A stretch of 35,069 nt of DNA from assembly GCA_903825945.1 (NCBI GenBank), contig CAIKCJ010000018.1, forward strand, positions 64,737 to 99,805. The letters are read 5' to 3'. The notes below the pieces were generated by a model that had not been told where the DNA came from, searched no databases, and saw nothing but the letters and a program-made list of their open reading frames with translations. The position numbers were made by a program, and so were the translations under genes. This DNA comes from an uncultured Actinomycetes bacterium (GTDB taxonomy: Bacteria; Actinomycetota; Actinomycetes; Nanopelagicales; Nanopelagicaceae). Shown here one piece after another: positions 23,500 through 35,069 of this stretch (positions are counted from its first letter, which is position 1; each line of letters opens with the position of its first letter).

Positions 23500-24357
23500 T
23501 TTCACAAGATCAATTCCTAGGGCGAAGAGTGCTAACCAGACGATTGAAAAGCCCATCCATCGTCCACTTGTCATCTTCTCGTGGTTTTTAAATACACCGA
23601 TAAGGAACTGAACTGTCGGAACAATGTATTGAAATAGACCGATGACCGAGTATGGAAGTTGGTTTACAGAGTTATTGAAAAGTAGAAGTGGTACTGCTGT
23701 CACAACACCGGCACCCATGAGAAGGAGCGTTAGATGAGTGCTGTGCCCGAATTGACCTGTTCCTTTGTTGGCTAGGTAAACCAGATATGCACCGTAAGGA
23801 ATCGCCGAAAGGAAGGTTTCGAGGGCAAGACCTTCAAGAGCTCCTAGTCCTAACTTCTTTTTAGTCAGGCCGTACGAGCCCCATGATGCCGTAATTCCGA
23901 GTGCAATCCAAGGAAAGTGCCCGTAATCAATCGCTAAAACAAGAACTCCGATTGCTGCAATCCCGACTGCGAGCCACTGAAGTGGACGCATTTTCTCTTT
24001 AAGGAGCACCACACCGAATAAAACAATGACGAGTGGATTGATGTAATACCCGAGCGCACACTCAACGACATGTCCGTGGTTAACGCCCCAGACATAGATC
24101 AACCAGTTACCTGAGACAAAGATGGTAGCCAGCGTGAGTCGAATCAGGTTATGGCGAATCTTTAGCAGCGCAAAAGTCGCTCTGAATTTCTTTGAGAATA
24201 GTAAGACGACGGTGCAGAAGACCATCGTCCAAATTGCCCGGTGCGCAACGATCTCAAATGAATTGGCAGGCTTTAGTAGTGGCCAGTAGAGGGGGAATAG
24301 ACCCCACATCAAGTTGGCTGCGATGGCAAACGCGATCGCGCGACCAGAATGTTTCAT
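23458..24357 (-). CDS. rarD: RarD-like EamA-family transporter
   Basis: A 299-residue protein with about ten hydrophobic helices in two EamA halves. 'LMWGLFPLYWPLLKPANSFEIVAHRAIWT' (in parts) is the hallmark N-terminus of RarD, a drug/metabolite superfamily permease first named for chloramphenicol sensitivity; the natural substrate is unknown. It starts 4 bases downstream of the yajQ stop in the same direction, so it is likely cotranscribed with yajQ. Its 3' end is antisense to the prenyl synthase gene. Confidence 0.88.
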   Translation of the reverse strand: MKHSGRAIAFAIAANLMWGLFPLYWPLLKPANSFEIVAHRAIWTMVFCTVVLLFSKKFRATFALLKIRHNLIRLTLATIFVSGNWLIYVWGVNHGHVVECALGYYINPLVIVLFGVVLLKEKMRPLQWLAVGIAAIGVLVLAIDYGHFPWIALGITASWGSYGLTKKKLGLGALEGLALETFLSAIPYGAYLVYLANKGTGQFGHSTHLTLLLMGAGVVTAVPLLLFNNSVNQLPYSVIGLFQYIVPTVQFLIGVFKNHEKMTSGRWMGFSIVWLALFALGIDLVKSGRSSDNNLAELD

Positions 24358-24361
24358 GCGA

Positions 24362-24850
24362 TCAACGGTAATTAGTGAATTGGACTGAAAATTCCCAAGG
24401 ATGATCTTTCACAAGGGCGATGGCATCTTGGAGATCATCGCGGCTCTTGCTTGTCACGCGGAGCTCTTCACCTTGAATCTGACTCTTAATTGACTTAGGA
24501 CCTTCGTCGCGAAGCAATTTAGCGATCTTCTTCGCATCTTCAGTTTTGATTCCCTCTTTAAAGGAGCAAGAGATCTTGTAGAGCTTGCCACTGAGTTGTG
24601 GGTCAGTAGCATCCAAATGCTTGAGTGAAATTCCACGCTTTACTAACTTATCACGGAGGACTTCGAGAGCGGCCTTAGCTTTCTCTTCTGATCCGGCTTC
24701 GATATTGATCTTCTCGCCCGATTTTTCAAGGGTTGTCTCTGTGTTTTTGAAATCGAAGCGAGTATCGATTTCACGTGAGGCCTGATTGAAAGCATTATCA
24801 ACTTCCATATGGTCGATCTTGGAAACTATGTCGAAACTGGAATCAGCCAT
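24362..24850 (-). CDS. YajQ family nucleotide-binding protein
   Basis: A 162-residue protein starting 'MADSSFDIVSKIDHMEVDNA', typical of the YajQ/DUF520 family, with the two repeated ferredoxin-like domains ('EIDTRFDFKNTETTL' and 'KSIKSQIQGEELRVTSKSRDDLQ' in parts). Some members bind cyclic di-GMP and act with transcription factors; in Actinobacteria the role is unproven. Normal length. The first 8 bases overlap the end of the NCS1 permease gene upstream. Confidence 0.92.
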   Translation of the reverse strand: MADSSFDIVSKIDHMEVDNAFNQASREIDTRFDFKNTETTLEKSGEKINIEAGSEEKAKAALEVLRDKLVKRGISLKHLDATDPQLSGKLYKISCSFKEGIKTEDAKKIAKLLRDEGPKSIKSQIQGEELRVTSKSRDDLQDAIALVKDHPWEFSVQFTNYR

Positions 24851-26291
24851 TGTGCGCCTCCTGCTTTGTTATTGCTCTACGTGAAAGAAGTATGTGTCCT
24901 GCGAATCCTACGGCTAGGGCCACTATGACCCCGACATTGGCTGGTGCCCATTGTCCGGACTTTCCACCGATAGCGCTCATGAAGTAACCCTGCCAATTAA
25001 GCCATTTGGCCGATGGGTCACTGTTGGTGACAAACCCCCACCCAATAACTGTGGCCGAAATCAGAAGAAGAAGGGATCGCGTATTCCATGCCCCATAGCG
25101 CCCGAGTGGATCAAATAGATCACCCTGCACGTAATCGACCTTGCGCATAATGACATCGGCTACGAAGATCGCAGACCAGGCAGCAATCGGAACACCCAAA
25201 GTAATGAGGAATGCTTGGAATGGCGCGACGAAATTGGGGGAGTGCCAGGCAATATAGATCGTGCCAATAAGCATGATGATCGCATCGATAATCGCAGCAC
25301 GGTGACGGCGATAAGGAAAGCCAATCGAGACAAGTGCGATACCAGATGAATAAAGATCCAAAATCGCTCCACCAATAAGTCCAAGGATAGCAACGATTGC
25401 AAATGGAATTAAGAACCATGTTTGCAAGATGCTTGTGAGTGCACCAACGGGATCGCCTTCGATTGCTCCTTTAAGAGTCGATGAACTCGCAGAAAGTAGT
25501 GTTCCAAAAATGACAAGAATGATGGGAACTAGTGATGAACCGAATACTGTCCAACCAATAACACTTCGGTTCGACGTATTGCGTGGCAGGTAACGACTGT
25601 AGTCGGCTGCTGAATTCACCCAACCAAGTCCGATTCCGGTAATTGCAAAGATTGTGGCACCGACAAGTCCGGCAAGTGAACCAGAGTGCCCTGCGTTAAG
25701 TGTGTGAACCTTGTGCCAATCAATCTTGCTCCATGTAAGAGCGATATATCCCAGTGTGAGCACGATTGTGATTGATGTGAGCCAGCGTTGTACCTTCATG
25801 ATGGTCTGGAATCCAAGAACTCCGCCGAAGATTACAAGTCCGGCAGAGACCATGAAACCGATAACGAGCGCGAAGTTGTGGTTGATATGCCCCACTCGAA
25901 CAAGCACTGTGCGCGAAGCAAGTGTGGCTAGTGCAACAAGGACGGTCTCCCAACCCACAAAGGTGAGGTACGAGAGAAAGCCCGGAAGAACATTTCCTTT
26001 GACGCCGAAAGCTGCTCGTGAAAGCGTCATTGTCGGTGCATTCGAACGCTTACCTGCGATGGAGCTAACCCCAACGAGCCCAAAAGAGCTGACGGTTCCA
26101 ACGACTGCGGCGATTACGGCCTGCCAAAATGAAATATTAAAGAGATCCAGAAACAATCCGCCATAGCCCAAGGCCAAGAGCGAGACATTGGCGGCGGCCC
26201 AAGGCCAGAAGAGTGAGCGAGCTGTGCCACCACGCTGCGCCTCATCGATCACGTTGGTGCTGTTGAGTTCGATAGAATTAAGGATATTCAC
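24843..26291 (-). CDS. NCS1 family nucleobase:cation symporter (cytosine/purine permease)
   Basis: A 482-residue permease with about twelve hydrophobic segments. The early 'AFGVKGNVLPGFLSYLTFVGWETV' region (in parts) and 'GLGWVNSAADYSRYLP' near residue 224 are characteristic of the purine-cytosine permease branch of NCS1 transporters, which import cytosine, purines or related compounds using a cation gradient. Substrate cannot be assigned. No nucleobase-salvage gene is adjacent. The 74-base divergent region in front of it contains a GC-rich palindrome. Confidence 0.85.
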   Translation of the reverse strand: MNILNSIELNSTNVIDEAQRGGTARSLFWPWAAANVSLLALGYGGLFLDLFNISFWQAVIAAVVGTVSSFGLVGVSSIAGKRSNAPTMTLSRAAFGVKGNVLPGFLSYLTFVGWETVLVALATLASRTVLVRVGHINHNFALVIGFMVSAGLVIFGGVLGFQTIMKVQRWLTSITIVLTLGYIALTWSKIDWHKVHTLNAGHSGSLAGLVGATIFAITGIGLGWVNSAADYSRYLPRNTSNRSVIGWTVFGSSLVPIILVIFGTLLSASSSTLKGAIEGDPVGALTSILQTWFLIPFAIVAILGLIGGAILDLYSSGIALVSIGFPYRRHRAAIIDAIIMLIGTIYIAWHSPNFVAPFQAFLITLGVPIAAWSAIFVADVIMRKVDYVQGDLFDPLGRYGAWNTRSLLLLISATVIGWGFVTNSDPSAKWLNWQGYFMSAIGGKSGQWAPANVGVIVALAVGFAGHILLSRRAITKQEAHNG

Positions 26292-26307
26292 AGGCTCACT
26301 CTAACGG

Positions 26308-26326
26308 AGCGCGGTTGCGAGCCGCG
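26308..26326. promoter_or_regulatory. GC-rich inverted repeat in the NCS1/DUF4190 divergent region
   Basis: CGCGG-N7-CCGCG (26309-26325) is a perfect 5-bp inverted repeat, extendable by G-T pairs on both sides, midway between the NCS1 permease gene and the following small gene. It may be an operator or an mRNA hairpin. No U-tract follows, so it is not a standard terminator. Confidence 0.3.
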
Positions 26327-26365
26327 TCGAAAGTGCCATATTTAATGAAACAAAGGAGTTTTACT

Positions 26366-26791
26366 ATGAGTGATAAAGACGATCGCAAAGAGCTTATCCG
26401 CCTTCAAGAAGCGACTAACACCTCAGTCATCGCATTCGTGCTGAGTATTTTCATGCCTCTCGTTGGTTTGGTTTTGGGTATTAAAGCTCATCGCGAAATT
26501 AGAGATTCGAAGCACACACTGACGGGCCGCGCATTTGCAGTGGCTGCAATGTGGATCGGCGGAATTGGAACTGCGCTGTGGGCTGGATTGATTGCACTCA
26601 TTCTTATTTGCTCAGCCGGAAACGGTCATCACGGTTTCGGACATAACCACGGAATGTTTGGTCGCGGTAATGGCCAAAACATGACACGCAATTTCAATGG
26701 ATTCGGTTCCTCAAACTTTGGCAACCCAGCTAATCCCTCTGGTCCAGGTAATCCATCAGGTAGTCAAGGATTCGGTGGCGCCAACAAGTAA
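26366..26791 (+). CDS. DUF4190-like membrane protein with Gly/Asn-rich tail
   Basis: The ATG at 26366 is chosen because AAAGGAG (26352-26358) lies 7 bases before it; longer readings from 26315 or 26345 lack this. The 141-residue product has a charged N-terminus, two hydrophobic segments (about residues 20-40 and 58-83) with 'LGIKAHREIRDSKHTLTGRAFAVA' (in parts) between them, which is the DUF4190 pattern, and a tail of about 55 residues made almost only of G, N, F, S, P and H ('GHHGFGHNHGMFGRGNGQN' is its start). The tail should be disordered and could bind metal through its histidines, but no function is known. Confidence 0.75.
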   Translation: MSDKDDRKELIRLQEATNTSVIAFVLSIFMPLVGLVLGIKAHREIRDSKHTLTGRAFAVAAMWIGGIGTALWAGLIALILICSAGNGHHGFGHNHGMFGRGNGQNMTRNFNGFGSSNFGNPANPSGPGNPSGSQGFGGANK

Positions 26792-26810
26792 TAGTTTTGT
26801 TCATGTTTAA

Positions 26811-26834
26811 GACACCTTCACGCTAACAGGTGTC
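26811..26834 (+). promoter_or_regulatory. Inverted repeat upstream of the flavin oxidase gene
   Basis: GACACCT-N10-AGGTGTC, a perfect 7-bp inverted repeat 22 bases before the oxidase ATG. It may be a regulator site or the first of two successive hairpins in the leader. Its left arm could also pair, with a one-base bulge, with AGGTGGTC at 26842-26849, giving an alternative structure to the next hairpin. Confidence 0.45.
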
Positions 26835-26840
26835 AATGAA

Positions 26841-26872
26841 GAGGTGGTCTAATAAATGATTATGACCACCTC
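26841..26872 (+). promoter_or_regulatory. Hairpin enclosing the ribosome binding site and start codon of the oxidase gene
   Basis: GAGGTGGTC (26841-26849) and GACCACCTC (26864-26872) are perfect 9-bp inverse complements. The inner TAAT/ATTA pairs add four more base pairs after a one-base bulge. The left arm holds the only Shine-Dalgarno (GAGG), the loop holds the ATG at 26856, and the right arm begins at the second in-frame ATG (26862). Folded mRNA would hide the initiation site. As DNA it could instead be a long-spaced operator; TGGTC/GACCA halves recall GntR-family sites, but the 14-base spacer is too long for those. Confidence 0.55.
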
Positions 26873-27998
26873 CTCACGTAAAACAGTTGTTGTCGTTGGC
26901 GGAGGTATCGTTGGAACGATGCATGCTCTGCTCGCCATCAAAGCCGGATATTCAGTCACGCACATTGAGCGTGATAGCCTGCCTCAATCTTCCTCTGTAC
27001 GAAATTTTGGACTCATTTGGGTCAGTGGCCGTGAGGCAGGAGCCGAACTAGAAGTTGCACTTCGCGCCCGGGAACTGTGGGGCGAAATTGGTAGCGAAGC
27101 CAAGATCGGCTTCCGAGCCCAACACTCCCTCACAATTGCTGTAAATGAAGATGAATTTGCAGTGATGCACGAAGCGGCGAATATGACAGACGCATCAGCA
27201 CGTGGATTTGAACTACTAACCCGCGAAGAAATTATCGCTCGCGATCCCGCGCTTCAAGGGTCCTTTGTTGGCGGATTGCTCTGCACCCAAGATGCCGCTG
27301 TAGAACCACCGCTTTTACTCGGTGGATTGAGGGAATTTCTGTCGCAAAGCCCCGATTATCAATGGCTCCCTAACTTTGAAGTTGTTGATTTTTACCATGA
27401 CGAAACCGGTAATCACGTCACTGACATTCAAGGGAATAAGATTTCCGCGCAACTTATGGCTATCTGTCCTGGTGCTGCACACAAGGGCTTCCTCAGTGAG
27501 TTCTTCGAGGGCGCCGCGCTACGTAAAGTACATCTGCAAATGGGGGCGACGGCTCCATTTGCGCATCCGCTTAAGTACTCAATCGCTGATGCAGACTCTA
27601 TGCGCTATTACCCTGCGTTCAAAGATCTCTCTCTGCACAAGTTAGGTGAGCAATCTGAGATAGCTGTTAGAAATAAAATGCAATTACTTATGGTTCAACG
27701 ACTCGATGGCTCATTCACTATTGGTGATACCCACGATTATGTAGAACCGTTTAATTATGAGATTCAGGAAGAACCATACGTGCATCTTAAGAAGGTAATG
27801 GATTCAATCCTCGGAACTCCTAGCCCAGCAATTGTTCGGCGCTGGGATGGGGTTTACTCGCAAAGCACAAATAGTGATATCTACTTCCGAAGAGAGATTG
27901 CACCAGGTGCAGTTGTCGTGACTGGAGGTGGTGGGCGCGGCAATACCATCTCACCTGCAATGGCTGAAAAAACAATATTGGATTGGGCAAAACTATGA
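26856..27998 (+). CDS. FAD-dependent oxidoreductase of the phosphonate-associated type (TIGR03364-like)
   Basis: A 380-residue DAO-fold flavoenzyme. The dinucleotide-binding loop is 'VVVVGGGIVGTMHALLA' (residues about 11-27) followed by 'VTHIERD'; 'SSVRNFGLIWVSGRE' near residue 46 and the C-terminal 'VVVTGGGGRGNTISPAMAEK' complete the FAD site. This pattern matches the family that occurs beside phosphonatase-like hydrolases and is thought to oxidatively deaminate an aminophosphonate to the 2-oxo compound; relatives have been associated with AEP derivatives that are hydroxylated or N-methylated. The exact substrate cannot be read from sequence. The stop overlaps the hydrolase ATG (ATGA). No signal peptide, so cytoplasmic. 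A structured leader covers the start; ATG 26862 is an alternative start two codons in. Confidence 0.8.
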   Translation: MIMTTSSRKTVVVVGGGIVGTMHALLAIKAGYSVTHIERDSLPQSSSVRNFGLIWVSGREAGAELEVALRARELWGEIGSEAKIGFRAQHSLTIAVNEDEFAVMHEAANMTDASARGFELLTREEIIARDPALQGSFVGGLLCTQDAAVEPPLLLGGLREFLSQSPDYQWLPNFEVVDFYHDETGNHVTDIQGNKISAQLMAICPGAAHKGFLSEFFEGAALRKVHLQMGATAPFAHPLKYSIADADSMRYYPAFKDLSLHKLGEQSEIAVRNKMQLLMVQRLDGSFTIGDTHDYVEPFNYEIQEEPYVHLKKVMDSILGTPSPAIVRRWDGVYSQSTNSDIYFRREIAPGAVVVTGGGGRGNTISPAMAEKTILDWAKL

Positions 27999-28675
27999 GC
28001 GATATTAAATTAGTAGTTCTTGATGTTGCAGGAACTACCGCCAAAGACGATGGTCTGGTTGTAAAAGCCTTTATCAACGCAATTGAGCCGCTCAATCCCA
28101 GCGCAACCGAACTTGCTTCGATGATTGACTACGTGAATGTGACCATGGGTCAACGCAAAATCGATGTTTTTATGCACCTATGCAATCAAGATTTTGCGCA
28201 GGCCAACGCTGCACACGACCGTTTTGTCGAGAGCTATAGAAATCTCGTGGCAGAAGGATTGCTCGAAGAATTCGAAGGAGTCTCGGACTTCTTTAGAGAA
28301 TTGAGTGACCGAGGTGTTGGAGTTGCTCTAACAACCGGCTTTCCACGCTCAATTTTGGACTTTATTATCGAAAGCCTGGGGTGGCAGCAACTTGTGGATG
28401 TCTCGGTAGCAGCTTCAGAGGTTGTACAAGGTAGGCCTGCGCCAGACATGATTGAGCGCGCCATCGAGCTCTACAACGCTGACCGAGGAACAGACCTTGG
28501 GGCAAGCCAGATTGCGATTGCGGGTGACACCCAATCCGATATTCAGGCCGGCTTAAGCGCGCACGCAACAATTGTTGCCGGAGTAACAAGTGGCGCAAGC
28601 AGCAAGGAAGAGTTGGTTGCAGCAGGAGCTACTCATACTTTGGATTCCGTCGTCGAGCTTTTGGATCTCATTTAA
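27995..28675 (+). CDS. Phosphonatase-like HAD hydrolase (PhnX-related, TIGR03351-like)
   Basis: The ATG at 27995 overlaps the oxidase stop and gives 226 residues; a TTG four codons earlier is less likely. Motif I is 'VLDVAGTT' with Asp10 and the phosphonatase-specific Ala12 in place of the usual second Asp. The cap carries 'VNVTMGQRKIDVFMHL' with Lys55, aligned by its MG..KID context with the Schiff-base lysine of PhnX. Arg147 ('QGRPAPDM') replaces the normal HAD lysine, and Asp178/Asp182 ('AGDTQSDIQAG') bind Mg. These features predict C-P hydrolysis of a 2-oxoethylphosphonate such as phosphonoacetaldehyde or its 1-hydroxy form, releasing phosphate and an aldehyde. The amine-removing partner is presumably the coupled flavin oxidase rather than a PhnW transaminase. 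Confidence 0.86.
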   Translation: MSDIKLVVLDVAGTTAKDDGLVVKAFINAIEPLNPSATELASMIDYVNVTMGQRKIDVFMHLCNQDFAQANAAHDRFVESYRNLVAEGLLEEFEGVSDFFRELSDRGVGVALTTGFPRSILDFIIESLGWQQLVDVSVAASEVVQGRPAPDMIERAIELYNADRGTDLGASQIAIAGDTQSDIQAGLSAHATIVAGVTSGASSKEELVAAGATHTLDSVVELLDLI

Positions 28676-28693
28676 TCATCTCACTCGCTAAGA

Positions 28694-28715
28694 GTTAACC
28701 TGAAGGTCACTTTAT
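28694..28715 (+). promoter_or_regulatory. Possible PHO box before the ABC transporter operon
   Basis: Two direct repeats with an 11-base period, GTTAACC-TGAA and GGTCACT-TTAT, resemble the actinobacterial PhoP box (GTTCACC repeated every 11 bases) at 6/7 and 5/7 positions. It lies 72 bases before the binding-protein ATG. TATAGA at 28713-28718 could be a -10 overlapping the second repeat. The second repeat is also the left arm of an imperfect inverted repeat (28705-28711 with 28727-28733). Suggestive only. Confidence 0.4.
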
Positions 28716-28786
28716 AGACGTCCAATAGTGATCAATTATTTAGGTGCAAACGATTTGCTTCTCCCACAATCCTTGAAGGGGGACTA

Positions 28787-30028
28787 ATGCGCAAGCACTT
28801 CATACTTGGAACTGTTGCAGCAATCGCTGTTGCAATTCTTCCTGCTGTCTCTTCAGCTCCATCATTCGCTGATGATTCAACATTTGCTACATGCACCGAC
28901 CTCGCATCTTGCGGAGGAATGACTGCTCTTATTAAGGCAGCTCAAGCAGAAGGTTCATTGAACATCACAACAGTTCTTCGTAACTGGGCAGACTACGGCG
29001 ATGCAATCGATTCATTCCAAGCTGCATTTGGCGTTCATATCAACGATGACAACCCAGATGGCGGATCTTCATACGAGATCAAGTCAATCCAGACAGCTCC
29101 TGAAGCAAGCGCTCCCGATGTAGTAGATATCGGAGCTTCTCACATTGCAGATGCAATGACAGGTAACAAGAGCGGCGGAAGCTTGTTCGCTCCATACAAG
29201 GTAGCAACTTGGAACGACATTCCAACAGCGTGGAAGGATCCAGCTGGATATTGGTTCGGTAACTATTCTGGTCAGATCGTGCTTGGCTATGATGCAAAGC
29301 TTAAAGTTCATCCAACAAAGATCTCAGATCTTCTCAACCCTGCTTATAAGAAGGTTGTAGGAATCGCTGGCGATCCAACAGGTGCACAAGAGGCTCTTAT
29401 CACTGTCATGACAGCTTCTGTAGCTAACGGTGGATCACTCGATAACGTCCAAAAGGGTGTTGATTTCTTCCACAAGCTCAAGACAATTGGCAACCTTTCA
29501 GGTGCAAATGCTGACTCAACACATATCGCGACCGGTAACCCAAAGGTCTGGTTCGACTACTCATTCAACGCACTTGGTACACAACAAGCTGGCGCTCAGA
29601 TCGGCAAGACATTTAATTACGTCAAGCCTTCTGATGCAGCAGTCATGGGTACTCCGTACATCTTCGGTGTTAGTGCAACAGCTCCACACCCAGCAGCAGC
29701 TCGCCTTTGGGTTGAGTTCTTAATGTCTGAAAACAAGGGTCACCTTGCTAAGGACCTCGCTGGTGATGAAGCAACAAACGTTGCAGCTGGAACTCTTGAT
29801 GGAGCAAAGTTGTTCGCTTCACTCATGGGTGGACAGAACATCTTCACACTTGGTGGTGCGATTCCTATCGAGCAGGCTGCAATGGCAAAGAAGAAGTTGT
29901 TGGTTCCATCACCAACATCAATCTTCCAGTCAAACCCTGCTGCTGATAAGTTGACGCTCCAGATGCCAACAGTTGCACAGCAGACAACAGCAACAGCACT
30001 TCTCAAGACAGCATGGGCGAAGATCTAA
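28787..30028 (+). CDS. ABC transporter substrate-binding protein, 2-aminoethylphosphonate/iron type
   Basis: A 413-residue exported protein: Sec signal peptide with Arg2/Lys3, hydrophobic core and SFA-D cleavage near residue 28. It has no lipobox, so it is either released or held by the Sec helix. Mature sequence begins with a Cys pair (Cys36, Cys42) that may form a disulfide. 'DVVDIGASH' near residue 110 and 'DPAGYWFGNYSGQIVLGYD' near 151-169 are typical of the type 2 periplasmic binding fold used for Fe(III), polyamines, thiamine and aminoethylphosphonate. The phosphonate assignment comes from the neighbours. A strong ribosome binding site (GAAGGGGGA) precedes the ATG. Codons are strongly biased to GCA, ACA, TCA and AAG, unlike neighbouring genes, suggesting very high expression. 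Confidence 0.82.
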   Translation: MRKHFILGTVAAIAVAILPAVSSAPSFADDSTFATCTDLASCGGMTALIKAAQAEGSLNITTVLRNWADYGDAIDSFQAAFGVHINDDNPDGGSSYEIKSIQTAPEASAPDVVDIGASHIADAMTGNKSGGSLFAPYKVATWNDIPTAWKDPAGYWFGNYSGQIVLGYDAKLKVHPTKISDLLNPAYKKVVGIAGDPTGAQEALITVMTASVANGGSLDNVQKGVDFFHKLKTIGNLSGANADSTHIATGNPKVWFDYSFNALGTQQAGAQIGKTFNYVKPSDAAVMGTPYIFGVSATAPHPAAARLWVEFLMSENKGHLAKDLAGDEATNVAAGTLDGAKLFASLMGGQNIFTLGGAIPIEQAAMAKKKLLVPSPTSIFQSNPAADKLTLQMPTVAQQTTATALLKTAWAKI

Positions 30029-30064
30029 GTAATTAGATTCGAACTCATGTCTCAAACTTCACTC

Positions 30065-30103
30065 CAGAGCACCCTCAGCCATCAAACGGCTGAGGGTGCT
30101 CTG
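30065..30103 (+). promoter_or_regulatory. Perfect 16-bp hairpin between binding-protein and permease genes
   Basis: CAGAGCACCCTCAGCC (30065-30080), a 7-base loop ATCAAAC, and GGCTGAGGGTGCTCTG (30088-30103) form a perfect, GC-rich 16-bp stem 37 bases after the binding-protein stop. No U-tract follows. Such elements after a binding-protein gene often protect the upstream mRNA or partly block readthrough, making the binding protein more abundant than the permeases. It also bears on the permease start (see that entry). Confidence 0.75.
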
Positions 30104-30118
30104 CCTGTTGCAAAGAGA

Positions 30119-30958
30119 ATGTTCCGGTTAGATAAATCATTTCTCGGAATACTCCCGTTCCTAGCACTGATCGGATATTTCTTTTTCTATCCATTAGCCG
30201 TTGTATTTAATGAATCGATTCATGATTCACATCATCATCTGACCGCCTCTGCTTACAAAGCTCTATTTGGCGGAGACTATCGGAACGCATTTATCGGCTC
30301 TTTTGAGCTAGCAGCTTATTCGATGGCCATATCAGCGATCATCGGCGCACTCATCTGCTGGGCCGTAGTAAAAACACAGGGCCACGCTCGCAAGCTCATT
30401 ATTGCTGCTGCAGGAGTTCTCACCAGCACGGGCGGAATTCCACTGGCATTTAGCTTCATTGCAGCCTTTGGACAAGAAGGACTCGTTACCAAAATCCTGC
30501 TCAACGTATTTCACTGGGATATTTATGGTGGCGCCTTCGATATTTATAATTTTTGGGGCATTCTCCTCGTTTATTGCTTCTTCCAAGCGCCTCTCATGGT
30601 GATCATTTTTATCCCTGCGGTAGAAAACTTGAAAGTAGAGTGGCAGGAAGCCAATGAAACTTTAGGCGGCTCTCGCATTGCCTATCTCCGCTTCGTCGTG
30701 ATTCCGGTGTTAGCGCCAGCGTTTATCTCGTCATGTTTGCTTCTATTCGCCAGTGGGTTCTCTGCATACGCAACCGCGGCCGCTATGTCCAACGGCACGA
30801 TCCCGCTCGTCCCACTTCTTATAGGTAATCTCGTCAATGGCGAAGTCCTTGCAGATCAAGCTAACCAGGGTGATGCCCTCGCGATGGGAATGATCCTTGT
30901 TTGCGTGCTGGTCTTTGGACTTTATGCGCTTGTCATGAGAGTTTCGAGAAAGAAATGA
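30119..30958 (+). CDS. ABC transporter permease (first subunit)
   Basis: The ATG at 30119 gives 279 residues starting 'MFRLDKSFLGILPFLALIGY', with the first helix at the usual distance. An in-frame ATG at 30047 would add 24 residues translated straight through the 16-bp hairpin and has no Shine-Dalgarno; AAAGAG just before 30119 is also poor, so the choice is not firm. About six transmembrane segments are visible, and the EAA-type coupling loop 'EANETLGGSRIAYLRFVVIP' lies near residue 180. It imports the ligand of the preceding binding protein, with the second permease and the ATPase. The stop overlaps the next ATG (ATGA). Confidence 0.82.
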   Translation: MFRLDKSFLGILPFLALIGYFFFYPLAVVFNESIHDSHHHLTASAYKALFGGDYRNAFIGSFELAAYSMAISAIIGALICWAVVKTQGHARKLIIAAAGVLTSTGGIPLAFSFIAAFGQEGLVTKILLNVFHWDIYGGAFDIYNFWGILLVYCFFQAPLMVIIFIPAVENLKVEWQEANETLGGSRIAYLRFVVIPVLAPAFISSCLLLFASGFSAYATAAAMSNGTIPLVPLLIGNLVNGEVLADQANQGDALAMGMILVCVLVFGLYALVMRVSRKK

Positions 30959-31737
30959 AACGTACTTTAGGTTGGTCAGACCGCACCATTCTGATCGCAG
31001 CAGGTTTCTTTTTTATTACACCCTTTTTGGCGGCTGGTGAGTATTCACTTCGCGGATATGGCGGAAAAGGCCATACATTTGCTAACTACACCTGGATTCT
31101 CCATCAGCTTGGCTTTGGACCGGCACTCCTAACAAGTCTGCGAATCGCGGGAGTCTCAGTCCTGCTTCTTCTATTCTTGATGATCCCAACAGTCGTCTAT
31201 GTCCAATTAGGTGGTCGGCGCTGGGCACGGCTTATTGAAATCCTCTGCTTACTTCCGATTGTGATACCAGTGGTCTCCTTAGCAATTGGAGCTCAGGTTG
31301 CAATGCCAAAGCGACTCCAATCCACATCCTATGAACTCTGCTTCTTCTACGTGATCATTTGTATGCCTTATGTCTATAGAACCCTCAACACTGGCCTTCA
31401 GGCAATTGCCTTACCCACATTGGTTGAAGCCTCGTCGAGTCTTGGAGCAACTCCCGTAAAGACGCTGGTTCTGGTGATCATTCCCGCGATTCGCTCGGCA
31501 ACGCTAGGTGCTGCATTTATCACTTTCGCAATTTCCATGGGTGAGTACGCACTAGCAGTGCTTCTCCACTTCCACACGCTGCCTACCTGGGCGACAAACG
31601 CAGCGCAAGAGAATCTCTATGGTTCTGTGGCAATCTCAATCGGCTCTCTCTTCTCTGTGTGGTTCTTGCTTGTTCTATTTAGCTATCTGCCAGCCATCAA
31701 AGGCGCACTCCAGAATAAGAAGGTGAAGGTTACTTAA
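30955..31737 (+). CDS. ABC transporter permease (second subunit)
   Basis: The ATG at 30955 overlaps the stop of the first permease gene and gives 260 residues; an upstream TTG reading into the previous gene is rejected. 'MKRTLGWSDRTILIAAGFFF' begins the first helix. About six helices are visible with the EAA-like loop 'EASSSLGATPVKTLVLVIIP' near residues 160-180. It forms the membrane channel with the first permease. The stop shares its final A with the ATPase start codon, so all transporter genes are tightly coupled. Confidence 0.86.
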   Translation: MKRTLGWSDRTILIAAGFFFITPFLAAGEYSLRGYGGKGHTFANYTWILHQLGFGPALLTSLRIAGVSVLLLLFLMIPTVVYVQLGGRRWARLIEILCLLPIVIPVVSLAIGAQVAMPKRLQSTSYELCFFYVIICMPYVYRTLNTGLQAIALPTLVEASSSLGATPVKTLVLVIIPAIRSATLGAAFITFAISMGEYALAVLLHFHTLPTWATNAAQENLYGSVAISIGSLFSVWFLLVLFSYLPAIKGALQNKKVKVT

Positions 31738-32789
31738 TGGATATTCATGGAAGCACCGTCGAATTTCATGGCGTTACTCGTAAATTTGGGAACGTGGTTG
31801 CCCTCAACGACTTTTCGCTCAAAATTAAACCTGGTGAGCTCGTCACCTTGCTCGGACCTTCTGGTTGCGGCAAGACGACCGCTTTGCGAATCTTGGCCGG
31901 CATCGATAAAGAACATTCTGGCGTTGTAGAGATTGACGGTAAGGATATGTCCAGTATCCCTGCAAATAAGAGAAACATTGGAATGGTATTTCAGGCTTAT
32001 TCACTATTCCCTAACATGACGGCGCAAGAAAATGTCGAATACGGCCTTCGTGTAAGAGGAGTGGATTCTGTTGCTCGAAGCAAGCGAGCTTCCGAACTTC
32101 TCGAACTAGTCGGACTTGCTTCTCAATCAGCTCGTCGTTCTACTCAGCTTTCTGGTGGACAACAACAGCGCGTTGCTTTAGCAAGAGCCCTTGCGATTGA
32201 GCCGAGCGTTCTCTTGCTCGATGAGCCACTTTCTGCTCTCGATGCCCAAGTGCGTTCACAACTACGCGATGAGATTCGCCGTATTCAAAAAACGATTGGG
32301 ATTACAACGCTATTTGTCACACACGACCAAGAAGAAGCTATGGCTGTATCTGACCGAGTCGGTGTTATGAATAAGGGCAATTTGGATCAGATTGATTCAC
32401 CAAGTCATCTGTATAACAAGCCAAAGACACCATTTGTGGCTGGCTTTGTGGGTCTCACAAATGTGGTCCCTGCCGTTGCGCAATCCAAGAACGAGGTCTT
32501 AGTACTTGACCAAGTACTTGATATTTCAGAGCACGCACCTAGCTTGGTAAAAGGTGAAGAAGTTAAGGCTCTGATTCGTCCCGAGGCGATCAGCATCGAG
32601 AAAGCCGCAAAGGGCGCTGTAGTTATCACCAAATCGTTCTTAGGGCCTATGACCAGAATTGGTATTGATGTTGGCCTTCATGACCTTATTTATGTTGAGC
32701 TCACTTCGAAGGAAGCAAAGAAGATTGATACTGGAGATCATGTTGAGGTTACGATCTCAAGTGACTCGGTTATGGTCACTCATGCCTAA
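31737..32789 (+). CDS. ABC transporter ATPase subunit with TOBE-type C-terminus
   Basis: A 350-residue importer ATPase of the PotA/FbpC/AEP class. Walker A 'GPSGCGKT' at 40-47, Q-loop Gln86, signature 'LSGGQQQR' at 138-145, Walker B 'LLLDEP' at 159-164, D-loop 'SALD' and switch His196. The C-terminal approximately 110 residues ('FVGLTNVVPAV...' and 'ALIRPEAISIE') are a TOBE-like domain that can sense ligand or regulate activity. It powers the two permeases encoded just upstream. The last 8 bases overlap the metallophosphoesterase start in another frame. Confidence 0.92.
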   Translation: MDIHGSTVEFHGVTRKFGNVVALNDFSLKIKPGELVTLLGPSGCGKTTALRILAGIDKEHSGVVEIDGKDMSSIPANKRNIGMVFQAYSLFPNMTAQENVEYGLRVRGVDSVARSKRASELLELVGLASQSARRSTQLSGGQQQRVALARALAIEPSVLLLDEPLSALDAQVRSQLRDEIRRIQKTIGITTLFVTHDQEEAMAVSDRVGVMNKGNLDQIDSPSHLYNKPKTPFVAGFVGLTNVVPAVAQSKNEVLVLDQVLDISEHAPSLVKGEEVKALIRPEAISIEKAAKGAVVITKSFLGPMTRIGIDVGLHDLIYVELTSKEAKKIDTGDHVEVTISSDSVMVTHA

Positions 32790-34353
32790 GTTGGACACTC
32801 AAGTACAGCGAATCGTTCGAGATCTTCCCAATGACAAAGGTTGGCGCGATCTTAAGCGTGCAGAAGGCGAAGTACTAGAGGGCCTGGCTCCATCAGAGGA
32901 TGCAGAGTCGGTACTTAGCCTGGTTCACATCTCGGATCTTCATATCTGCGATGCGCAATCTCCTGCTCGAGCTGAACTTATGGATCGATTTGCCGATCCA
33001 CATCATCCGATGTCGCAGCTCATCAAATTAGTTGGCGCTTATCGCGCACAAGAAATCCTAACGACTCAAACTCTTGAGTCGATGATCCGAACAATAAATC
33101 AGATTGAGCATGGACCAGCAACAACTCGTCCAATAGATGCGGTCGTTGTCACAGGGGATGTCACGGACAACGCTCAGCGCAACGAACTCTCTTGGTATTT
33201 AGCGCTCATGGATGGCGGCATCGTGCATCCCGATAGCGGTGACTTCGGGGTTTGGGAAGGCGTAGCTTCGAACGATCCCAAGAAGTATGACCCTTCATAT
33301 TGGAATCCGGAAGGAACACCAGAGGGTTGCATTGATGATTACCCACGCTCTCTCTATGGTCTACCAACAATTCCTGGCTTAACCGATGCAGTGCGCCAAC
33401 CATTCACCGCAACTGGTCTGCGACATCGTTGGTTTGCAACTCATGGAAATCACGATGCGATGCTTCAGGGTACTGTGCCAGCAGCTCCGCAGCTTCTTGC
33501 AATGGCTATTGGTGATAAGCGCTTGGTGTCGTTGGCACCAGATAGCGATTTGAATGAGATTTTCAGCAAGTGGACCCAGGTAGGTCCGGCCGGCTACGCG
33601 TCTCCAGAGGGTGGTCAATTTGTTGATCAAACAAGAGATGAAAATCGGAGCTTCAACGATGCATCTGATTGGGCCAAGATTCATCTTGCATGCGACCATG
33701 ATGGTCATGGCCTCAGCCATGAAAATCAAGTAGCCGGAACCAAATATTGGTTTAAGGATGTTGGAGCCGTTCGCTTGATTTCTTTGGACACAGTCAACAC
33801 TCATGGTGGCTGGCAAGGTTCACTCGATGAGAGCCAATTTAATTGGCTTAAAAGTGTTCTGAGCGATCCAACCCCTCGATATATCGTTTTGCTCTCACAC
33901 CATCCAGCTGCGACTCTTTTTAATGACTATGCGCCAGAAAATGGCGAGCGTCGCATCTGCCAGGATGAGCTCGTTGCCGAACTTCTCAAGCATGAGCGAG
34001 TTATCCTCTGGCTTGCTGGACATAATCACGAGCACGCGGTTGAACATATCGGTGGTAATGATCTGCGTGGCTTCTGGCATGTGCAGACAGGGTCAAATAT
34101 TGATTGGCCGCAACAGGGTCGATTGGTAGAAATTCTTGAACAGAACGAACGAATCGTTATTGCAACATCAGTATTTGATCATCAAAGCCCTATTGATCTT
34201 AAGGAAGCAACGTCAGATCTATCGGACCCAGTTAATCTTGCAGGCATTTCACGCATCTTGTCTGCCAATCATTGGCAACGTCGCTCTGGTGAATTTGATC
34301 TAGAGTTGATGTCAGGAAAAATAGAAGATCGGAATCGATACCTTTGGCTCTAA
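32782..34353 (+). CDS. Calcineurin-like metallophosphoesterase with long inserts
   Basis: The ATG at 32782 overlaps the ATPase stop by 8 bases and gives 523 residues ('MPKLDTQVQRIVRDLPNDKG'). All five dimetal motifs are present: Asp52 and His54 in 'ISDLHICD', Asp126 in 'VTGDVTDN', 'GNHD' at 222-225, 'LLSHHPAA' near 374 and 'LAGHNHEHA' near 414. Long insertions between motifs resemble the actinobacterial family built around Propionibacterium PPA1498 (TIGR03767), but here there is no twin-arginine signal, so the enzyme is cytoplasmic. Sitting between the transporter and the PhnZ-like gene, it probably hydrolyses a phosphonate or phosphate ester that enters through this transporter, such as a conjugated aminophosphonate. 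That role is inference. Confidence 0.82.
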   Translation: MPKLDTQVQRIVRDLPNDKGWRDLKRAEGEVLEGLAPSEDAESVLSLVHISDLHICDAQSPARAELMDRFADPHHPMSQLIKLVGAYRAQEILTTQTLESMIRTINQIEHGPATTRPIDAVVVTGDVTDNAQRNELSWYLALMDGGIVHPDSGDFGVWEGVASNDPKKYDPSYWNPEGTPEGCIDDYPRSLYGLPTIPGLTDAVRQPFTATGLRHRWFATHGNHDAMLQGTVPAAPQLLAMAIGDKRLVSLAPDSDLNEIFSKWTQVGPAGYASPEGGQFVDQTRDENRSFNDASDWAKIHLACDHDGHGLSHENQVAGTKYWFKDVGAVRLISLDTVNTHGGWQGSLDESQFNWLKSVLSDPTPRYIVLLSHHPAATLFNDYAPENGERRICQDELVAELLKHERVILWLAGHNHEHAVEHIGGNDLRGFWHVQTGSNIDWPQQGRLVEILEQNERIVIATSVFDHQSPIDLKEATSDLSDPVNLAGISRILSANHWQRRSGEFDLELMSGKIEDRNRYLWL

Positions 34354-34898
34354 CAACGTACGAAGAGATTGCAGAGATCTACTCATCAGGAGTTTCTGAA
34401 GAATATCTAGGCGAAGATGTGAAGCTTGTCGAGCATATGTTGCAATGTGCAGATCTTGCGTTGGCGGAAGGCGCTGCAGATCATTTAGTTCTTGCTGCCC
34501 TACTGCATGACATCGGTCATCTACTTATTCCTGACGCGACCGAAGCACATTTTTCAGGGGTAGATGCACACCATGACGAGATAGGTTCGCATTGGGTAGA
34601 AGAGCGATTCCCAGAGAGTGTGAGTCTTCCAATTCTGTTGCATGTGGATGCGAAAAAATACTTGGTGGCTACAGATAGTGAGTATTACGAGAAGCTTTCC
34701 CAAGCAAGTAAAGAGACTTTAGCGATGCAAGGTGGAGCACTCAGCCCAGAAGAGGCTGCGGAGTTTCTGCTGATGCCTGGAGCTCAAGAAGCCGTGCAAG
34801 TTCGACTGTGGGATGATCAGGCGAAAATTCGCGGTAAGGCAACCTCACAGATCGCTGATTTTAAAGCGATTATTGAGCGATTAGCGCTGCATCAATAA
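34344..34898 (+). CDS. PhnZ-like HD-domain diiron oxygenase
   Basis: A 184-residue HD-domain protein from a TTG start that overlaps the previous gene by 10 bases. The TTG is needed because the next possible starts (GTG at codon 26, ATG at codon 32) would remove the N-terminal active-site residues. It matches PhnZ: lid residues Tyr21 and Glu24 in 'EYLGEDV', His31, His55-Asp56 and His59 in 'LLHDIGHLL', His77 in 'HHDEIG', His100 and Lys104 in 'LHVDAKKYL', and an Asp at 157/158 in 'RLWDDQAK'. PhnZ uses a mixed-valent Fe(II)/Fe(III) pair to split the C-P bond of (R)-1-hydroxy-2-aminoethylphosphonate to glycine and phosphate; related enzymes act on other 1-hydroxyphosphonates. No PhnY gene is in the window to make the hydroxy substrate, so it may be imported or come from elsewhere. 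Confidence 0.8.
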   Translation: MALTTYEEIAEIYSSGVSEEYLGEDVKLVEHMLQCADLALAEGAADHLVLAALLHDIGHLLIPDATEAHFSGVDAHHDEIGSHWVEERFPESVSLPILLHVDAKKYLVATDSEYYEKLSQASKETLAMQGGALSPEEAAEFLLMPGAQEAVQVRLWDDQAKIRGKATSQIADFKAIIERLALHQ

Positions 34899-34905
34899 CC
34901 TGGGG

Positions 34906-34911
34906 TAATCT
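34906..34911 (+). promoter_or_regulatory. Possible -10 element for tRNA-Tyr
   Basis: TAATCT fits the actinobacterial TANNNT -10 form and lies 26 bases before the tRNA 5' end. A poor -35 candidate is TTAGCG at 34881-34886, with 19-base spacing. Low certainty. Confidence 0.3.
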
Positions 34912-34937
34912 ACGCTCGCTGCTTAACTGATAGCCCT

Positions 34938-35022
34938 GGCGGGTTGCCCGAGCGGCCAATGGGAGGGGACTGTAAATCCCCCGGCTCTGCCTTCGAAGGT
35001 TCAAATCCTTCACCCGCCACCA
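34938..35022 (+). tRNA. tRNA-Tyr (GTA anticodon)
   Basis: The acceptor stem is GGCGGGT (34938-34944) paired with ACCCGCC (35012-35018), followed by discriminator A and an encoded CCA. The anticodon stem GGGGA/TCCCC encloses the loop CTGTAAA with anticodon GTA. A long variable arm (around GGCTCTGCC) marks it as class II, as bacterial tRNA-Tyr is. The T arm is GAAGG-TTCAAAT-CCTTC (34995-35011). All stems pair fully. Confidence 0.95.
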
Positions 35023-35069
35023 GATAGCTGATCTATATATCAAGCGTATTTATATGTAATTGTGCGACC

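Follow-up and report, generated by a model that had tools for sequence, protein, structure and literature searches.

How can a bacterium combine two unrelated ways of breaking carbon-phosphorus (C-P) bonds in one operon when the enzymes that usually feed both are missing? The question is raised by an uncultured member of the Nanopelagicaceae (Actinomycetota, order Nanopelagicales). The window analysed here is a stretch of 35,069 nucleotides (assembly GCA_903825945.1, contig CAIKCJ010000018.1, positions 64,737 to 99,805) that makes up the last part of a contig of 99.8 kb in a 1.26 Mb assembly, which is 94.8% complete. Eight genes on its plus strand, at 26856-34898, follow the order HpnW-PhnXlike-SBP-TM-TM-ATP-MPE-HD, that is, an oxidase, a hydrolase, an ATP-binding cassette (ABC) importer made of a substrate-binding protein (SBP), two permeases (TM) and an ATPase (ATP), a metallophosphoesterase (MPE) and an HD-domain oxygenase. 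We put the probability at roughly 0.55 that the operon serves the Pho-controlled salvage of aminophosphonates, partly as esters, with the oxidase and hydrolase used for 2-aminoethylphosphonate (AEP) and N-methyl-AEP, and the HD oxygenase for 1-hydroxy-AEP. This reading is built on the observed gene content and order, the lack of matches to PhnW, PhyH, TauD and PhnJ, conservation, the grouping of the HD protein with TmpA-linked relatives and a shared promoter element.

The initial annotation, made from the letters of the window, had described eight adjacent same-strand genes of these families and, from the PhnX-like and HD proteins, a single operon with two unrelated routes of C-P cleavage. Overall, its observation is confirmed and its interpretation partly supported: all eight open reading frames (ORFs) are present at those places with family matches and intact motifs, and both cleavage enzymes match their families. 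The genes mostly overlap or nearly so, and the single gap, of 111 bases, lies before the binding-protein gene.

The cluster exceeds chance, because its order recurs complete in four further genomes (L024, L025, L026, L028) and in part, as far as their contigs reach, in six more (L027, L029, L030, L032, L033, L034). Among 251 genomes drawn evenly from the order, HpnW was found in 37 (40 places; E <= 1e-40), the MPE in 104 (115 places; E <= 1e-30) and the HD oxygenase in 13 (E <= 1e-10). The MPE lies on the contig and strand of HpnW, with 4,768-4,956 bases between them, in 27 of the 40 HpnW places; 12 of the other 13 meet a contig end before the MPE position. Eleven of these 12 were inspected in sequence and keep the order intact as far as the contig goes, and G201:C221 was judged by coordinates alone. 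Of the 28 HpnW places that no contig end truncates, 27 thus have the MPE at the same spot; the lone uncut exception is G228, which reads TmpA-HD-HpnW-PhnXlike-SBP-TM-TM-ATP. The conserved unit is therefore seven genes, HpnW-PhnXlike-ABC-MPE, and HD is an optional eighth. This gives genomic support to the earlier proposal that the phosphoesterase belongs to the pathway; the gene set as first described recurs in its order, and the HD gene is not part of its core. HpnW was matched in 10 of the 13 HD genomes, and in the remaining three (G075, G102, G217) the contig that carries HD stops short of where HpnW would lie. A cluster of PhnX-like, importer and MPE genes with no HpnW oxidase detected was also seen (L184, in G023).

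The oxidase scores 284.1 bits against TIGR03364 (HpnW/PbfD), one bit short of the cut-off of 285.1, which 12 of the order's 40 HpnW places pass. Oxidases of the PbfD type convert N-methyl-AEP and AEP to phosphonoacetaldehyde; PbfD1 of A. baumannii, annotated as TIGR03364, has been assayed, and in 2023 so were PbfD/TIGR03364 oxidases that feed PhnX without PhnW (PMC10590968). By analogy, the oxidase here is predicted to turn AEP and N-methyl-AEP into phosphonoacetaldehyde and H2O2. A plasmid search with it returned three distant records at E <= 1e-20.

The hydrolase matches the PhnX-like family TIGR03351 over its full length (199.9 bits, cut-off 218.9) and true PhnX (TIGR01422) at 63.8 bits (cut-off 220), and PhnX structures are its best matches in the PDB (E 4.4e-18). 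It contains DVAGTT, MGQRKID and GRP; DVAGTT, MGxxKI, GRP and GDT..D are invariant in six aligned rows, as are the cap lysine K55 of MGxxKI and R147 of GRP. The PhnX counterpart of the lysine motif is MGLLKID, and the two lysines were paired by motif, the HMMER alignment leaving that column unaligned. The protein has all the features that we take to mark the PhnX-like family, namely a DxAGT nucleophile motif, a cap lysine and an arginine before the C-terminal motif.

Likeness to known AEP transporters varies along the importer. The binding protein matches the PhnS-like AEP-binding model PRK15046 weakly (40.2 bits, cut-off 310) and PDB 5t1p at E 3.1e-42. The permeases are PhnU/PhnV/CysT-like with weak matches to AEP models (permease 1 with NF011624, 63.1 bits, cut-off 247; permease 2 with PhnV, 47.8 bits, cut-off 358.7), and the ATPase reaches 389.8 bits with PhnT2 (cut-off 457.7). 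The hydrolase, the ATPase and the HD protein are near full-length matches below the curated NCBIfam cut-offs, and the MPE is the sole operon protein above its own.

The usual feeders were searched for genome-wide. No PhnW over the cut-off is present in the 94.8% complete genome, where the best match has 24 bits against a cut-off of 400.8; all 14 control genomes also match PhnW at the 24-bit level, none over the cut-off. A PhnW elsewhere in the genome is thus rejected. Neither PhyH (the PhnY* type) nor a TauD-type hydroxylase (TmpA) has any match in the same assembly, so that a feeder of either kind elsewhere in the genome is rejected as well. PhnJ was found in none of 13 genomes including that of the window, and C-P lyase is rejected on this basis. 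The absence of PhnW, PhnY and C-P lyase, first noted within the window, therefore extends to the assembled genome.

What then feeds the HD oxygenase? The protein scores 198.5 bits against TIGR03276 (Phn-HD), whose cut-off of 214.6 is passed by one of the order's 13 HD matches, a TmpA-linked one. It scores 161.1 bits with a TmpB model and 133.3 with a model of the hydroxymethylphosphonate enzyme PhnZ1, and matches the structures of TmpB (6npa, E 3.5e-47) and PhnZ (4mlm, E 6.2e-39). Its ligands H31, H55-D56, H77, H100 and D157 are invariant in 12 rows, as is the YxxE loop Y21/E24, and all align with TmpB 6npa and PhnZ 4mlm; the H..HD..H..H..D ligands and the YxxE loop are motifs of the PhnZ/TmpB HD oxygenases (PMC8177086). 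By analogy, the enzyme would split (R)-1-hydroxy-2-aminoethylphosphonate into glycine and phosphate.

The neighbours of HD point to its ancestry. In the order, HD lies 6-93 bases 3' of the MPE (match coordinates) in 11 of the 13 genomes and overlaps the end of a TmpA-like gene in two (G108, G228). The TmpA-like genes of these two score 330 and 350 bits against NF049936 (cut-off 400), and the same two are the only ones of the 251 genomes with TauD matches (E <= 1e-10). G108 also holds the seven-gene cluster with MPE on another contig, with no HD within that contig. Among the best 80 of at least 174 confirmed HD loci, a TmpA-like gene is found in 39, HpnW in nine, PhnX-like in nine and the MPE in one (L038). 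In an HD tree built by a quick method, ten MPE-type rows group together (SH-aLRT 86) and, joined by the order's two TmpA-linked rows, make up a 12-row set (99), which lies inside a 59-row region (82) with 38 TmpA-linked rows. Because the tree groups it with TmpA-linked enzymes, the HD oxygenase seems to have once worked behind a TmpA-like hydroxylase and then lost that partner. HD-bearing clusters are scattered among HD-less ones in the MPE tree, which indicates repeated gain or loss of HD. A decaying HD gene is unlikely: among 16 pairs more than 75% identical, dS was saturated in 12, and the other four, one of them with dS near 3, gave dN/dS of 0.05-0.16. Purifying selection acts on both HD and MPE in the measurable pairs.

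Elsewhere, HD genes keep other company. On Rhodococcus and Dietzia plasmids (L196, L197) the HD oxygenase immediately follows a gene of the phytanoyl-CoA dioxygenase family, and both belong to a conserved block with a 2-oxoglutarate/Fe oxygenase, a cobalamin-independent methionine synthase-like gene and a YaaH transporter. In three Bacteroidota loci with HpnW and PhnX-like genes (L062, L083, L105), a DUF5690 gene follows HD; DUF5690, perhaps a phosphonate transporter family, matches 5 of the 69 neighbour ORFs of HpnW-linked loci.

The MPE passes the cut-off of TIGR03767 (345.1 bits against 330.75), and its metal motifs DxH, GD, GNHD and GHxH are invariant in 10 rows. We take the description of this family to include a twin-arginine (TAT) signal. 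The N-terminus MPKLDTQVQRIVRD has no hydrophobic stretch by eye and no visible export signal; within their first 160 residues, 9 of 19 MPE homologues from the phylum, the group searched for it, have a loose RR motif. In a tree of 30 MPEs from the order and the 19 from the phylum, the order's MPEs form one clade (100), and one unlinked copy (L182) falls among those of the HpnW clusters. Foldseek matches of the MPE model are SMPDL3A/B, acid sphingomyelinase, Lmo2642 and GpdQ, also a dimetal phosphatase and PhoD; most of them are phosphodiesterases, active on ordinary phosphodiesters. Since a phosphonate monoester chemically resembles a phosphodiester, a phosphodiesterase-like MPE is a plausible phosphonate-ester hydrolase.

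Control by phosphate is suggested by the gap before the binding-protein gene, which contains GTTAACCTGAAGGTCAC, a match to GTTAACY-N5-KTCAY (Table 1). This pattern has one match in the window and none in 100 shuffles. Among 221 loci its sole places are the equivalent gap of six related clusters and the region upstream of one gene, a pstS-like gene of the window's own genome (covered by three overlapping loci), where the element lies at C23:4688-4704 (G000, L221). The 64.7 kb of the window's contig (C18) that precede it contain none (L217-L220). The pstS-like gene immediately follows PstC, PstA and PstB, all three of them above their cut-offs. The gap search started from the Streptomyces-type PHO-box consensus, which was significant (p <= 0.05) in 6 of 17 gaps, as a looser score of the element was in 19 of 27 gaps (simple shuffles). 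Because the pattern was read off the cluster gaps, counting it there is partly circular; the pstS site, found later, had no part in building it. From these sequence patterns, the operon is probably switched on by phosphate hunger, and the motif is a candidate Pho motif for the order, a predicted PhoB/PhoP site. The element common to the operon and pstS supports the role in phosphorus supply that the initial annotation had assigned to the cluster.

In the salvage reading, the ABC importer would take up aminophosphonates including small esters, such as deacylated lipid or glycan headgroups, and the MPE would hydrolyse the ester in the cytoplasm and free the phosphonate. The HpnW/PbfD oxidase, standing in for PhnW, would make phosphonoacetaldehyde by oxidising AEP and N-methyl-AEP, and the PhnX-like hydrolase would split it into acetaldehyde and phosphate. 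The HD oxygenase would cleave (R)-1-hydroxy-AEP to glycine and phosphate; this compound is poorly handled by PhnW-PhnX (PMC8154272). The HD gene would descend from a TmpA-fed oxygenase of the TmpB lineage whose hydroxylase was lost, so that the enzyme would live on already hydroxylated substrate. We infer every substrate named here, the loss of TmpA and the action of the MPE before the C-P enzymes.

Several findings weigh against this reading. The oxidase, the hydrolase, the importer parts and the HD protein all fall under curated cut-offs, and the binding protein is weakly AEP-like, with distant ferric-binding relatives. The PstS protein behind the second promoter element has 136.2 bits, under its cut-off of 205, and 8 of the 27 gaps are without a significant element. 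The AlphaFold model of the MPE is poor (pLDDT 64) and the TM-scores of its Foldseek matches are low (0.18-0.38 on the query; 19 matches, E <= 0.001). The MPE is also commoner than HpnW (104 and 37 of the 251 genomes), 88 of its 115 places are on contigs without an HpnW match, and a separate MPE clade stands away from any HpnW. Taken together, these last three points indicate that the MPE may have a general role, so that it could be a cytoplasmic phosphodiesterase, acting for example on glycerophosphodiesters, that shares a Pho-controlled operon, while free phosphonates alone enter the C-P branch. The Foldseek neighbours, with their ordinary phosphodiester substrates, fit this possibility, as does L193, where importer and MPE stand in tandem without HpnW. 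The constancy of the MPE at 27 of the 28 testable HpnW places argues against it, and so does the MPE tree, in which the MPEs of HpnW clusters and seven stand-alone or loosely importer-near ones, among the order's 30, fall into different clades. We regard such a general enzyme as possible, and as distinctly less probable than salvage that includes esters. The stand-alone TIGR03767 clade in the order, away from any importer, includes L177, L178, L187, L188 and similar loci.

The substrates of the two C-P branches could also be assigned otherwise. If the oxidase and PhnX-like hydrolase used 1-hydroxy-AEP, through hydroxy-phosphonoacetaldehyde to glycolaldehyde, and HD took the other enantiomer, the operon would divide one racemic substrate. 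The TIGR03364 description quoted in PMC10590968 does propose 1-hydroxy-AEP for the oxidase family, and the hydrolase is TIGR03351-like and not true PhnX; however, the PbfD enzymes assayed act on N-methyl-AEP and AEP (PMC10590968), and no HD was detected in 27 of the 37 HpnW genomes (some assemblies being incomplete), so that HpnW and the PhnX-like hydrolase seem to work without it. We consider this division improbable. Somewhat less so, and still unlikely, is a reading in which HD retains the substrate of TmpB, 1-hydroxy-N-trimethyl-AEP, or acts on hydroxymethylphosphonate, either compound being imported as such. The grouping of HD with TmpA-linked relatives and its higher score with TmpB than with PhnZ1 speak for this reading, but with no hydroxylase found in the genome the hydroxylated compound would have to come from outside, and the conserved amine-binding glutamate argues against hydroxymethylphosphonate. 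The salvage reading also has a bolder form, which we hold tentatively: a dedicated ester salvage in which an intracellular sphingomyelinase/GpdQ-like MPE would act on the headgroups of protist or bacterial lipids and glycans to free AEP-type phosphonates, and the orphan TmpB-lineage HD would use ready-made hydroxy-AEP from the same polymers.

Phosphoesterases also occur near HD genes outside the order. In TmpA-linked loci (14 drawn at random from 28, after 10 Mesorhizobium-group near-copies and L037 were dropped), 101 of 115 called ORFs were searched with Pfam, leaving out 11 TmpA genes and three other ORFs, and three Phosphodiest and two Sulfatase members were found among the matches listed. 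A phosphoesterase neighbour is thus not special to hydroxylase-less HD clusters, which adds to the points against the salvage reading. Ten HpnW-linked loci, with 69 of 88 called ORFs searched after 19 HpnW, PhnX-like and importer genes were set aside, gave four PF04185 and four Sulfatase members among the matches listed, and L054 adds one metallophosphoesterase. The families listed were the first 25 of 134 and the first 25 of 88, single matches hidden. A search with phosphoesterase seeds within 8 kb (E <= 0.01) found 7 of 10 HpnW-linked, 2 of 28 TmpA-linked and 5 of 31 other loci, counts that are circular in that the seeds came from those same loci plus the MPE; two more of the other loci, L040 and L041, came from a motif search. 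The ORF caller missed HD itself in 5 of the 28 TmpA-linked and 7 of the 31 other loci. We make no claim of phosphoesterase enrichment at hydroxylase-less clusters with HpnW and HD outside the order. Two loci may be seen as parallels to the MPE cluster. A plasmid of Hymenobacter sp. NBH84 (NZ_CP043649.1; L199) carries Phn-HD, SusC/SusD, a HAD hydrolase, a TIGR03364 oxidase, a sulfatase-like gene and an alkaline-phosphatase-family gene, and looks like a phosphonate-polymer utilisation locus. In Zwartia panacis (L054, 3498-10492), one run comprises a metallophosphoesterase, PhnC, PhnD, a further gene, a PsrA-like iron-containing alcohol dehydrogenase, HpnW, true PhnX and HD.

The pairing of the two routes as such is less unusual than the initial annotation had supposed. 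In PbfD2-PhnX of Mariniblastus fucicola an FAD oxidase likewise seems to replace PhnW and feeds a PhnX-type hydrolase, and phnW is apparently absent from that genome, as here (PMC10590968); the present operon differs in its TIGR03351-like hydrolase and in the added MPE and HD oxygenase. The Achromobacter hpnW-phnSXUT and phnHD cluster shares HpnW, a phosphonatase, a PhnSTU-type importer and a TIGR03276 HD protein; it differs in that its phosphonatase is PhnX, in a LysR regulator and in a phnW elsewhere in the chromosome, and the portion of the description available names no MPE (PMC11203657). Clusters of phnWX or phnWAY with phnZ share the hydrolytic route and a PhnZ homologue, read there as use of (R)-1-hydroxy-AEP (PMC8154272), whereas the present operon has an oxidase instead of PhnW, plus the MPE. 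PhnZ homologues were counted in 15 of 1,186 phnWX clusters and in 24 of the 75 of phnWAY type, and PbfA accompanied none of them (PMC8154272). The HD protein shares H..HD..H..H..D and YxxE with PhnY*/PhnZ, with no PhyH hydroxylase here, and groups with relatives linked to TmpA, as in TmpA/TmpB of Leisingera caerulea; two genomes of the same family as the window keep a TmpA-like hydroxylase directly upstream of HD, whereas the window's genome has no TmpA match and the MPE in TmpA's place. Both routes, the replacement of PhnW by PbfD (PMC10590968) and PhnZ homologues in hydrolytic clusters (PMC8154272, PMC11203657) are thus already published. New are the MPE core unit, an oxygenase of TmpA lineage that seems to be orphaned, and the Pho-type promoter element. 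In the open-access literature, to which the search was confined (subscription papers were outside its scope), we recognised no paper that describes the cluster with this gene order or places TIGR03767 next to HpnW.

Table 1. Genes and promoter element of the operon, in window coordinates
Feature	Position	Strand	Match or context
HpnW/PbfD-type FAD amine oxidase	26856..27998	+	TIGR03364; Pfam DAO
PhnX-like HAD hydrolase	27995..28675	+	TIGR03351; PhnX structures top PDB match
PHO-box-like element GTTAACY-N5-KTCAY	28694..28710	+	upstream of importer genes
Substrate-binding protein, SBP_bac_6 type, PhnS-like	28787..30028	+	PRK15046, PDB 5t1p
ABC permease 1	30047..30958	+	AEP permease model NF011624
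ABC permease 2	30955..31737	+	PhnV model
ABC ATPase, PhnT2-like	31737..32789	+	PhnT2 model
MPE, calcineurin-like metallophosphoesterase	32782..34353	+	TIGR03767
HD-domain diiron oxygenase, PhnZ/TmpB family	34344..34898	+	TIGR03276

Two of these starts are corrected to the likelier ones, that of the MPE to ATG 32782 from TTG 32659 and that of the second permease to 30955; for the hydrolase, ATG 27995, in an ATGA overlap with the oxidase stop, is likelier than TTG 27983. Just before or at the start of the oxidase gene lie two perfect 7-base inverted repeats, GACACCT/AGGTGTC and GGTGGTC/GACCACC (26811-26834 and 26843-26870), possibly a terminator or operator. An NCS1-family permease gene with a weak likeness to the hydroxymethylpyrimidine transporter CytX is found nearby on the minus strand (24843-26291), with a small DUF4190 gene between it and the operon, and a tRNA-Tyr gene (34938-35022) lies directly 3' of the operon. 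A search of 24000-35069 against Rfam gave no match at the gathering thresholds.

These findings suggest that aminophosphonates can be a source of phosphorus for small-genome, perhaps freshwater, actinobacteria, by a route mostly characterised in Proteobacteria. The role of PhnHD in Achromobacter was left open (PMC11203657), and the present cluster offers a testable answer to the puzzle, posed in the same paper, of what a PhnZ-type oxygenase does in organisms without a feeding hydroxylase. Natural phosphonates are often part of lipids and glycans, so that their catabolism in nature needs the release of free phosphonate from an ester, and the MPE is a candidate for this step. If the dedicated form of ester salvage is true, one operon would strip phosphorus from whole phosphonolipids or phosphonoglycans.

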